Assembly (NCBI RefSeq): GCF_002188635.1
Contig: NZ_NINX01000039.1
Span: forward strand, 186,001-250,000
Direction: 5' to 3'
Source: Pigmentiphaga sp. NML030171
Lineage (GTDB): Bacteria > Pseudomonadota > Gammaproteobacteria > Burkholderiales > Burkholderiaceae_B
DNA length: 64,000 nucleotides
Position 1 is the first letter of the stretch, and each line of letters opens with the position of its first letter. Of the stretch, positions 4,455-31,379 are shown piece after piece. The notes under the pieces are model-generated. The model had not been told where the DNA came from. It did no database searches and was given only the letters and a program-made list of their open reading frames with translations. A program made the translations under genes and the position numbers.

Positions 4455-5714
4455 CTACACCTGCAGGCTGTATTCCAGCGTGGCCATGCTGGCGGGCATG
4501 TCGACCTTGGCGCCCAGGTCGCGCATGGTCGAGCCCAGCGCGTGCAGCGTGCGGAACAGGTTGTGGGTCCGGCACTGTTCGCCCATCTGGCCGATGCGCA
4601 CGATGGGCAGGCCGAACGAGCCCGAGATTTCCACCCGGTAGCGTTCGGAGATGTGCGCGCAGATCCCGGTGTTGGTCAGGCCGTCGGGCACCGTGATGCC
4701 GACCACCGAGTTCAGGCGCGAGGCCGGTGGCGCGAACAGGCGCAGGCCCATGGCCTCGATGCCGTTCTGCAAGGCGAAGGACGAACGCGAATGGCGCGCG
4801 AAACGCACCGGCAGGGTCTCGGCGCAGACCAGGCGCAGCGCCTCGTGCAGCGCCAGCACCCCGGACACCGGGGCGGTGTAGTGGTACGACCCCTTGTGCC
4901 AGAAGTTCTCGGCCAGCCTGGCGTCCAGCACCCAGTGGGTATTGGGCGTCTTGCGCCGGCTGATGTGTTCCCACGCATCGTTGGAGAACGCGATCAGCGA
5001 GACGCCGGGAATCGACGACAGGCCCTTCTGGCCACCGGTGATGACGGCGTCGATCTGCCAGTCGTCCATCTGCAGCGGCATGGTGCTGAGCGTGCAGACG
5101 GCATCGACCACGACCAGGCAGCCGCGCTTCTTGGCGGCCTTGGCGATGGCGGGCAGTTCGCGGTTGAAGACCGTGTTGGAGGTCTCGCCCTGGACGATGG
5201 TCAGGACGTCGGGGCGGTGCTGCTCGATCGCCTGCTCCACCAACTGGGCCGACGCGGCCTGGTGGCCGTCGATTTCCAGCGTGACGACGTCGGCGTCCAG
5301 GCGCCGGCTCATCTCGGCCATGCGGGCGCTGAAGAAACCGTTGACCACGCACAGCACCTTGCTGCGGGGCGACACCAGGTTGCAGATCGCCATCTCCATC
5401 GCAGCCGAACCCGGGCCGGCCACGCCCAGCACCCATTCCGACTTCGTCTGGAACACATAGCCCGCCATCTGCTTGACCTGGGAGATGATGGTCGACATGG
5501 TCGCGCCCAGGTGGTTGATGACCACCGAGTTGGCATGGGCCACCACGTCGGGAATGGGAACGGGGCCGGCGCCCATCATCAGCAGGGGATCGTCGGGCAG
5601 GATCTCGCTCAGCAGGCGCACACGGGGCGGCTGCGAGTAGACAAGCGGGGGATGGTCGGTCGAGGAAGCGGTGTCAGCGGTTTCTTCGGCGGCGCGAAGC
5701 GGGCGGGTTGGCAT
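4455..5714 (-). CDS. Class V pyridoxal-phosphate aminotransferase (serine-pyruvate/alanine-glyoxylate type)
   Basis: 419 aa. The fold-type-I features of class V enzymes are present: LLMMGAGPVPIP near the start, GPGSAAMEMAICNL, the VVVDAVCTLSTMPLQMD segment with the PLP-binding aspartate, and VITGGQKGLSSIPG with the Schiff-base lysine. The C-terminal RIGQMGEQC region is also typical of serine-pyruvate / alanine-glyoxylate transaminases. The ATG at 5714 is chosen because it gives a normal length with about 35 residues before the core; the RBS is weak. It stands alone between two repeat elements. Exact amino donor is not decided. Confidence 0.88.
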   Translation of the reverse strand: MPTRPLRAAEETADTASSTDHPPLVYSQPPRVRLLSEILPDDPLLMMGAGPVPIPDVVAHANSVVINHLGATMSTIISQVKQMAGYVFQTKSEWVLGVAGPGSAAMEMAICNLVSPRSKVLCVVNGFFSARMAEMSRRLDADVVTLEIDGHQAASAQLVEQAIEQHRPDVLTIVQGETSNTVFNRELPAIAKAAKKRGCLVVVDAVCTLSTMPLQMDDWQIDAVITGGQKGLSSIPGVSLIAFSNDAWEHISRRKTPNTHWVLDARLAENFWHKGSYHYTAPVSGVLALHEALRLVCAETLPVRFARHSRSSFALQNGIEAMGLRLFAPPASRLNSVVGITVPDGLTNTGICAHISERYRVEISGSFGLPIVRIGQMGEQCRTHNLFRTLHALGSTMRDLGAKVDMPASMATLEYSLQV

Positions 5715-5777
5715 GTTGGATACGCGGCTGTGAGTGGAAAGCCCGGAGCCGGGCGGTCTGTCGGCCGCATGCCCGTT

Positions 5778-28374: not shown

Positions 28375-29688
28375 GTGACAACCCACTCAGCGTCCTTACC
28401 GCAGTCCTCATCCCGTCCTTGCTGGATGCCGCCGCTGGGCCGCGGCCTCGTCTACAGCCTGGCGCTGGCCGGCATGATCGGCCTGGCCGCCTGCGGCAGC
28501 GACGACGATCCTCCGCCCGCGCCGCCGGAACCGCCCGCCAATACCTATCCGCATGCGAAGGAACCGATAGGGACGGTGCGGGAAATGTACGACGGCACGC
28601 TGACGCCCGATCTCGCGGTCAACACCTTCCGCAACATCGATCGTCTGTTTCCCACCCGCAGCATCGCTCCCGCCGCGACGCCGCGCCCGCTGCCCAAGGC
28701 GGCCAGGCAACTGCCCGCGATCAAGTTCACGGCCGGTGGCAAGAACTACGACATCTACGACTACCTGGCGCTGAATCGCGTCTCGGGCCTGCTGGTGCTC
28801 AAGAACGGCGAGATCGCCTACGAGACCTACCAGTACGGCAACACCGAGAAGACCCGCTGGATGTCCATGTCGGTCGCCAAGTCCATCACGTCGACGCTGA
28901 TCGGCGTCGCCATCCAGGACGGCCTGATCGGCAGCGTGCACGACCAGGTGGTCAAGTACGTGCCCAAGCTGGCGGGTAGCGCCTACGACGGGGCCACGGT
29001 GCGCGACGTGCTGATGATGTCTTCGGGCGTGAAGTGGGACGAGACCTATACCAATCCCGCCTCGGACCGCCGCGCGTTGCTGGAGGCCCAGATCAGCCAG
29101 AAGCCGGGCTCGGCGCTGGAGCTGATGAGCAAGCTGCCGCGCGCGGCCGAACCCGGCTCCACCTTCAACTACAGCACCGGGGAAACGCAGATCGCCGGCG
29201 AATTGCTGCACGGTGCCATCAAGAAGCCGCTGGCCCACTACCTGTCGGAGAAGATCTGGTCGAAGTTCGGCATGGAGGCCGAGGCCAACTGGTGGCTGGA
29301 CTCGCCGGACGGCATCGAGATCGGCGGCAGCGGCCTGAGCGCCACGCTTCGCGACTGGGGCCGCTTCGGGCTATTCTTCATGAACGATGGCGTGATCGAC
29401 GGCAAATCCATCCTGCCCAACGGCTGGGTGGCCGATGCCGGCAGCGGCAAGACGCTCAGCGGCGGTGATCCCCTGCCGTACTACGGCTACATGTGGTGGG
29501 TGAACACCGACGGCCAGTCGGCGATCGACAAGGCGTTCTACGCCACCGGCATCTTCGGCCAGAACATCTACATCAACAAGAAGGAAAAGGTGGTGATCGT
29601 GACCTGGGGCGCGCAGTCCAAGCCCACGGGCGCCGGCGTCATCAACAACACGGCGTTCTTCGACGCCGTGGTGAAGGCGCTGCAATAA
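28375..29688 (+). CDS. Serine hydrolase lipoprotein, beta-lactamase/class C fold
   Basis: 437 aa from GTG 28375, which has an ideal AAGGAG RBS. The signal ends in lipobox LAAC (Cys 40) followed by [12 protein letters not shown], a likely lipoprotein linker. The class C-like catalytic motifs are SVAK (166-169) and YST (266-268); the third KTG-type motif is less clear. Esterases such as EstB and D-amino-acid/6-aminohexanoate hydrolases share this fold. No regulator or permease is adjacent; the divergent 219-bp gap to the TerC gene holds a GTCCGG/CCGGAC hairpin near 28201-28216. Confidence 0.88.
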
Positions 29689-29774
29689 GGGCAGGGCGGC
29701 CGCCGGGGACGAGGAGGGCGGGGCGCCCCCGCTTTCCTTCGTCCCTCGGTTCATTCACAAGGAACATTCCCGCC

Positions 29775-30215
29775 ATGCTCATCCGCCCTGCCGCCGAGAC
29801 CGACTTCGATCAATGGCTGCCGCTGTGGCGCGGCTACCAGGCGTTCTACCGGGTCGACATCCCGCTGGAAACCACGCAATTGACCTGGACCCGCATGATG
29901 GACGAAAGCGAACCCATGCATTGCGCGGTCGCCGCATCCGACGGCCGCCTGGTCGGATTGGTGCACTACATCTTCCACCGCAGTTGCTGGACACGGGGCG
30001 ACTACGTCTACCTGCAGGATCTGTACGCGCAGCCCGAATGCCGCGGGCAAGGCGTGGGCCGGGCGCTGATCGAACACGTCTACCGGGCCGCAGCCGACGC
30101 CAACGCGGCGCGCGTGTATTGGCTGACCCACGAGAGCAATGCGCAGGCGATGCGGCTGTATGACCAGGTGGCGGAGAAAAGCGGGTTCGTGCAGTACAGG
30201 AAGGCGCTGGGATAG
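29775..30215 (+). CDS. GNAT-family N-acetyltransferase
   Basis: 146 aa. The acetyl-CoA binding segment is QDLYAQPECRGQGVGRALIEHVY (Q/RxxGxG/A pattern). ESNAQAMRLYDQVAEKSGF is the usual C-terminal motif. The ATG follows an AAGGAAC. It is 87 bp after the serine hydrolase gene. Substrate not determined. It is the last gene before the dif-like site. Confidence 0.88.
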   Translation: MLIRPAAETDFDQWLPLWRGYQAFYRVDIPLETTQLTWTRMMDESEPMHCAVAASDGRLVGLVHYIFHRSCWTRGDYVYLQDLYAQPECRGQGVGRALIEHVYRAAADANAARVYWLTHESNAQAMRLYDQVAEKSGFVQYRKALG

Positions 30216-30348
30216 GCGTGGGTCGAGACGATTGCGGCAGGGTCATGGATGCGCTTGGCGTGTCGCTGACCGCCGTTGCCAAGGAAAAGGGACATGTGCA
30301 TGCGTAGGGAGCAACTGGACCCGGTCGGGTTGTCTTTCATATTACGTG

Positions 30349-30376
30349 ACTTTACATAATATACATTATGCGCATA
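30349..30376 (-). other. Chromosome dimer resolution site dif (predicted)
   Basis: Read on the minus strand: XerC-side arm TATGCGCATAA (30376-30366), spacer TGTATA (30365-30360), XerD-side arm TTATGTAAAGT (30359-30349). E. coli dif is GGTGCGCATAA / TGTATA / TTATGTTAAAT, so 24 of 28 positions agree, with the whole core exact. It lies in the 239-bp convergent gap between the GNAT and LysR genes, and gene orientation changes around it. XerCD would resolve chromosome dimers here at division. Confidence 0.9.
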
Positions 30377-30454
30377 ATCGGGATGTCGGAGCCACCGTTT
30401 CCCACGGCGCCACATCAGGCTCGTCGATACGCCGGCCCCCGTGCCTGCTTCGCG

Positions 30455-31354
30455 TCATGTCATGAAGAGATCGATCATCTGTTCCCGCATCCAGATACAC
30501 GCCGGGCTGGTGTGCGAGCGTTCGTGCCAGAAGATCGCCACGTCGAAGGCCGGCATGGCTATGGGCAACTGCGCGACTTGCAGCCTGCCTTCCTTGGCCA
30601 GTTCCGTGGCGACCCGGCGCGGCACGATAGCGACCAGGTCGGTGCGCGTCAGCGTCATGGCCAGCGCCATGATGTTGGGAAAGTACGTGACGATGCGGGC
30701 GTGCTTCTTCAGGAGCACCTCCTCGATGATCTGGTGACCGCCTCCCAGGGATGTCACCACCGCGTGCGGTGCCTGCAACAGCAATTTCTGGGTCAGCGTG
30801 CCGCGGGACAACGGATGTCCGGCGCGCATCAGGACCACGTAGCGTTCCTCGAACAGATGCTGGGTTCTCAGGCGGCTGCCGCGCAGCCTGGGCAGGTGGC
30901 CGGCGGCGAAATGGATGCGTCCGTTCTCGAGTCCGACGCGTATGTCCTCCTGCGACAGGGTCTCGGTTTGCACCCGCACTCTAGGGGCCACCTGCTGCAA
31001 GCGCTCCAGCAGCATGGGCAGGATGTTGACCTGCCCCATGTCGGGAATGTGGAAACGGAAGGTTTGCTCGCTGACGCCAGGGTCGAAATTCTTGCGGTGA
31101 TCCAGCGCCTGTTGCAGGCCGCTCAGGGCGTTGATCACGGTCTCGGCGATCTCCAGCGCGTACGGCGTAGGCTGCATGCCGCTCGTGCTGTTGACGAACA
31201 ATGGATCGCCCAAGAGTTGGCGCAGCCTGGTCAGGGCATTGCTCATCGCGGGCTGCGTGATGCCGAAGCGGTCTGCGGCCAGCGTCACGCTGCGGGTCTC
31301 CAGCATGGCTTGGAAGACAGAGAACAGATTGAGGTCGGAACGGTATAGGTTCAT
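30455..31354 (-). CDS. LysR-family regulator, NodD/LinR-like subgroup
   Basis: 299 aa from ATG 31354 (MNLYRSDLNLFSVFQAMLETRSVTLAADRFGITQPAMSNALTRLR). The HTH fits the NodD/SyrM/LinR-type LysR proteins, which begin with LRxLDLNLL. The earlier in-frame ATG at 31366 is disfavoured because a LysR-type T-N11-A palindrome (31365-31379) covers it and neither has a good RBS. Divergent from the ThDP enzyme operon, which it most likely controls with an aromatic or keto-acid effector. Its 3' end is 79 bp from dif. Confidence 0.9.
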   Translation of the reverse strand: MNLYRSDLNLFSVFQAMLETRSVTLAADRFGITQPAMSNALTRLRQLLGDPLFVNSTSGMQPTPYALEIAETVINALSGLQQALDHRKNFDPGVSEQTFRFHIPDMGQVNILPMLLERLQQVAPRVRVQTETLSQEDIRVGLENGRIHFAAGHLPRLRGSRLRTQHLFEERYVVLMRAGHPLSRGTLTQKLLLQAPHAVVTSLGGGHQIIEEVLLKKHARIVTYFPNIMALAMTLTRTDLVAIVPRRVATELAKEGRLQVAQLPIAMPAFDVAIFWHERSHTSPACIWMREQMIDLFMT

Positions 31355-31364
31355 GGCCTTATGC

Positions 31365-31379
31365 ATTCATTTTGTGAAT
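31365..31379. promoter_or_regulatory. LysR-type T-N11-A palindrome
   Basis: ATTCA-TTTTG-TGAAT contains a T-N11-A core with perfect 5-bp arms. It sits in the divergent gap immediately upstream of the LysR gene start and about 36 bp from the outward -35, fitting an autoregulatory/recognition site. Confidence 0.55.

Follow-up and report, generated by a model that had tools for sequence, protein, structure and literature searches.

The 28-mer at positions 30349–30376 of the window (the whole 64,000-nucleotide stretch of DNA that was analysed), which reads TATGCGCATAATGTATATTATGTAAAGT on the minus strand, is almost certainly the chromosomal dif site of Pigmentiphaga sp. NML030171, on which XerCD and FtsK would act. 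dif is the usual 28-base site where joined sister chromosomes are taken apart before a bacterial cell divides. The identification draws on the sequence of the 28-mer, its uniqueness in the draft genome, a polarity switch around it and the presence of genes for XerC, XerD and an FtsK gamma domain in the same genome. The site is real but ordinary, being of a known kind and expected in such a genome.

Results

A 28-bp site between convergent genes

The site and its surroundings are laid out as follows.

30349..30376, minus strand: dif site, 28 bp (11-6-11); 24/28 bases as in E. coli, 26/28 as in B. pertussis; single in the genome at ≤3 mismatches; inside the KOPS-switch interval
30366..30376, minus strand: predicted XerC-binding arm TATGCGCATAA, assigned from its position relative to E. 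coli dif and from the layout in the available text of PMC2731167
30360..30365, minus strand: central hexanucleotide TGTATA, same as in E. coli
30349..30359, minus strand: predicted XerD-binding arm TTATGTAAAGT, same as the B. pertussis arm in the available text of PMC2731167
30216..30454, no strand: 239-bp gap holding dif, between convergent genes with ORF ends at 30215 (plus) and 30455 (minus)
29493..30215, plus strand: GNAT acetyltransferase gene, left neighbour (Pfam PF00583, 1.2e-17)
30455..31366, minus strand: LysR-family regulator gene, right neighbour (Pfam PF03466, 1.3e-26; PF00126, 9.1e-17)

The first-pass annotation had described just such a 239-bp gap between convergent genes, as well as a 28-mer matching E. 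coli dif at 24 of 28 bases with an exact 6-bp centre, and both descriptions hold. Each outer arm carries two of the four differences from E. coli. The 28-mer is non-coding, lies between two family-matched genes and has a GC content of 25%, as against 67.5% in the published draft (PMC5543643). When one arm is inverted with respect to the other, 6 of the 11 positions agree, by a count of our own that has no control and differs from the published palindrome scoring. A plus-strand ORF at 30368–31348, which overlaps dif by 9 bases and runs antisense to lysR nearly throughout, was taken as spurious.

KOPS polarity switches at dif, and GC skew changes sign near it

The contig that carries the window (C45, 334,518 bases, with dif at 216,349–216,376) was analysed whole. 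The KOPS-like octamer GGGNAGGG occurs 44 times forward and 4 times reverse to the left of dif, and 4 times forward and 26 times reverse to its right. The best single change-point of its orientation falls between −670 and +1702 bp from dif, an interval covering 0.7% of the contig, with a likelihood that was reached in none of 1000 runs with permuted orientation labels. GGGNAGGG points to dif from both sides, a direction proper to a terminus and not to an origin. A switch of KOPS orientation at dif is also described in the available text of PMC13342612. Of all octamers occurring 25 times or more on the contig, GGGCAGGG ranked first by skew statistic in the direction of dif (52 vs 5), and the further G-rich octamers GCAGGGCG, GGGGCGGG, CGAGGCGG and GGTGGTGG are strongly dif-directed on both sides.

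GC skew on the same contig is +0.038 to the left of dif and −0.019 to the right. The raw cumulative curve has its maximum at 238,950, which is 22.6 kb from dif, and is flat around it (5,569–5,731 when read every 10 kb between 200 and 260 kb, against 5,758 at the peak). According to the available text of PMC2731167, the distance from dif to the skew switch in proteobacteria is 7.3 kb at the median and 21.4 kb at the third quartile, and amounts to 39.1 kb in E. coli, so that 22.6 kb falls within the ordinary range, in its upper quarter. The first-pass annotation had expected the skew to change here, which it does: the sign flips, and KOPS orientation inverts within a 2.4-kb interval that holds dif. 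Its more exact expectation, an extremum within a few kb of 30360, failed, as the maximum is 22.6 kb away on a flat plateau. The annotation had further called the window the replication terminus, and this stands for the zone in which skew and KOPS polarity switch. We use "terminus" for that switch zone only, because the available text of PMC3025954 argues that replication need not end at dif. The contig joins the cases in which dif is located more precisely by KOPS polarity than by raw GC skew.

A same-genus relative, G007, was examined through forty 20-kb samples and 20 kb at its own dif, in which GC skew and KOPS were scored. Its dif lies at 48% of the length of a 5,993,223-base contig whose first ORF is dnaA. 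Skew was positive in 18 of the 20 samples before dif and about zero in the other two (−0.001 and 0.000), and negative in 19 of the 20 samples after dif, the one positive sample being the last, which adjoins dnaA. With the dif sample left out, KOPS counts were 87/17 before dif and 10/81 after it (20 samples each); within the dif sample, all five KOPS to the left are forward and all six to the right are reverse, which places the switch somewhere from 1,672 bp before dif to 768 bp after it. The genes that flank the site in the window also lie on either side of dif in G007, although its GNAT match covers only 56 residues.

The site is single in the genome and recurs in relatives

The search covered a 57-contig draft genome of 5,862,145 bases. 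With no more than 3 mismatches allowed, the 28-mer itself occurs in it once, at 30349–30376 of the window, and a degenerate 24-mer core likewise occurs once, at the same place. One dif per chromosome is thus matched by one site at this threshold, and the genome-wide search for a better dif match that the first-pass annotation had proposed returned none elsewhere. Within the window the 24-base core was found once at ≤3 mismatches and in 0 of 100 shuffles, and no further dif-like site of at least 18/28 was seen between 20001 and 41000; on the whole contig, the next-best match to E. coli dif reaches 17/28. The E. coli 28-mer has no match in the window at ≤3 mismatches because the two sites differ at four positions. 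That the site merely resembles dif by chance can be set aside as having a negligible probability: its AT-richness (25% GC) means that local composition could favour look-alikes, but matches of at least 24/28 to E. coli dif are expected about 2e-6 times per genome on both strands under an independent-base model at 67.5% GC (3e-4 with uniform bases), the site coincides with the KOPS switch, and the core is present in all 10 same-genus relatives searched.

At ≤2 mismatches the core was found in 77 of 101 genomes (own genome included), and a reversed-pattern control matched none of the 101. Seventy-five of the 77 have a single match, while one (G077) has two, near contig ends, and another (G037) has three. 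The three dif-like matches of G037, which belongs to the same family, lie on contigs C69, C266 and C317; a mixed assembly or dif-using elements could account for them. When 8 relatives were re-searched at ≤3 mismatches, each had exactly one site. The other 24 of the 101 genomes, seven of which belong to the same family, had no match to the core at ≤2 mismatches; all 24 possibly carry a more divergent dif.

Base conservation was scored over 47 loci (41 distinct sites) chosen by the 24-base pattern, and this choice makes the count partly circular, leaving only positions 1, 2, 4, 24, 27 and 28 free. At these positions, among the 41 distinct sites, T is found at 28 in all, G at 27 in 83%, A at 24 and A at 2 in 78% each, A at 1 in 54% and A at 4 in 46%.

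Gene context around dif was compared in 16 relatives. The window's two-sided context is retained in G002 and G007; G003 has the context with additional sequence to the left and right of dif, G005 has the left-side context only (within the 20 kb read), and the remaining relatives have little or none of it. The 28-mer is thus conserved even where the genes around it are not.

Mobile elements, a second replicon and toxin-antitoxin genes

Two readings would keep the 28-mer as a XerCD site and deny it to the main chromosome. In one, it would be the attachment site of a XerCD-using phage, IMEX or plasmid. About a quarter of published proteobacterial dif sites adjoin phage or mobility genes (available text of PMC2731167), and in G003, of the same genus, some 8.8 kb of other sequence separates dif from lysR. 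Against this, the single site in the draft would leave the chromosome with no second dif of its own, and no second dif-like site bounding an insert, as in an IMEX, was found in the draft at ≤3 mismatches. Eight ORFs around dif were searched; five gave Pfam matches, none to phage or mobility families, and three had no match. The surrounding 1.9 kb had no plasmid match (near mode) and 1.1 kb had no phage match (distant mode), both in searches from which records close to the own genome were possibly excluded. Furthermore, dif has these same gene neighbours in G002 and in G007, in the latter on the 5.99-Mb contig that begins with dnaA. We consider a mobile origin extremely improbable.

The other reading, that the site is the dif of a second chromosome or chromid, has in its favour that replicon identity is not directly readable from a 57-contig draft. 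It would, however, require the main chromosome to have its own dif, and the draft holds no other site at ≤3 mismatches; the syntenic dif of G007, moreover, sits on the dnaA-bearing contig. This reading, too, has very little probability, and the main-chromosome dif is the one we retain.

The ground beside dif carries traces of toxin-antitoxin genes. Positions 30237–30307 of the window hold a 3' stub, some 70 bases long, which when translated resembles the C-terminus of an addiction-module antidote (TIGR02684) of G007; in G007 that antidote and a RelE/ParE-type partner (TIGR02683) adjoin dif. In G003 (L055:9278-18844) a RelB-family ORF lies to the left of dif, and the ~8.8 kb between dif and lysR includes response-regulator-like and Wzi-family ORFs. 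Eight ORFs of the G003 stretch were searched, giving matches to the GNAT, RelB, response-regulator and Wzi families and four ORFs without a match; the response-regulator ORF scored over the cut-off for Trans_reg_C and under it for Response_reg. The 8.8-kb stretch was also considered as a dif-integrated element and rejected, there being no second dif-like site (at least 18/28) or arm (at least 10/11) in the 20 kb read. It is conceivable, though we think it quite unlikely, that dif-adjacent ground in Pigmentiphaga is a recurrent spot for the landing or loss of toxin-antitoxin genes, a notion drawn from three genomes (G007, G003 and the window) with family searches on G003 and G007 only. If it were true, these modules might protect the terminus from being lost.

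The recombination machinery is encoded

The genome encodes XerD (TIGR02225, 378 bits) and XerC (TIGR02224, 342 bits), each over its curated cut-off, and one FtsK gamma domain (FtsK_gamma, 97 bits). XerD aligns to the solved XerD structure 1a0p, which we take to be the E. coli protein, over residues 6–289 of 290 and through the HVLRH and LGH...QIYTH stretches, presumably the bearers of the catalytic residues. XerC aligns to 1a0p likewise, with lower similarity.

In the established E. coli pathway, FtsK reads KOPS until it reaches dif-bound XerCD, and there triggers the recombination by which chromosome dimers are resolved. By analogy with that system, XerCD binding, FtsK activation and dimer resolution are expected at the Pigmentiphaga site. 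The TATGCGCATAA arm would be bound by XerC and the TTATGTAAAGT arm by XerD. During division, KOPS of the GGGNAGGG type, which point to dif from both sides, would guide FtsK; FtsK would join the two dif copies of a dimeric chromosome and activate XerD, and recombination by XerCD would then yield two monomers.

Discussion

The analysis locates dif and the zone of the skew/KOPS switch in a Pigmentiphaga genome, which helps in ordering draft contigs, and it opens no new question. A literature search for dif in Pigmentiphaga returned, among the matches listed, none that pairs the genus with a dif site.

Compared with dif of E. coli K12, as given in the available text of PMC2731167, the Pigmentiphaga site shares 24 of 28 bases, with the same 11-6-11 layout, centre and inner arms, and departs at positions 1, 2, 24 and 27. 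Dif of Bordetella pertussis Tohama I (same source, same extent) is closer still, with 26 of 28 bases in common and an identical XerD arm and centre; the two departures, at positions 1 and 4, both fall in the XerC arm. The first-pass annotation had suggested that the XerD-arm differences from E. coli were possibly lineage-specific, and the comparison agrees with it: because the B. pertussis arm is identical, these differences are a trait of the wider group, and most of the related sites scored have the same bases. The dif of Pigmentiphaga kullae K24 (G002) lies in the same gene order (beta-lactamase-family gene, GNAT, dif, LysR, TPP enzyme, aldehyde dehydrogenase), but differs from the window's site in the outer bases of the XerC arm and has TGTGTA as its centre.
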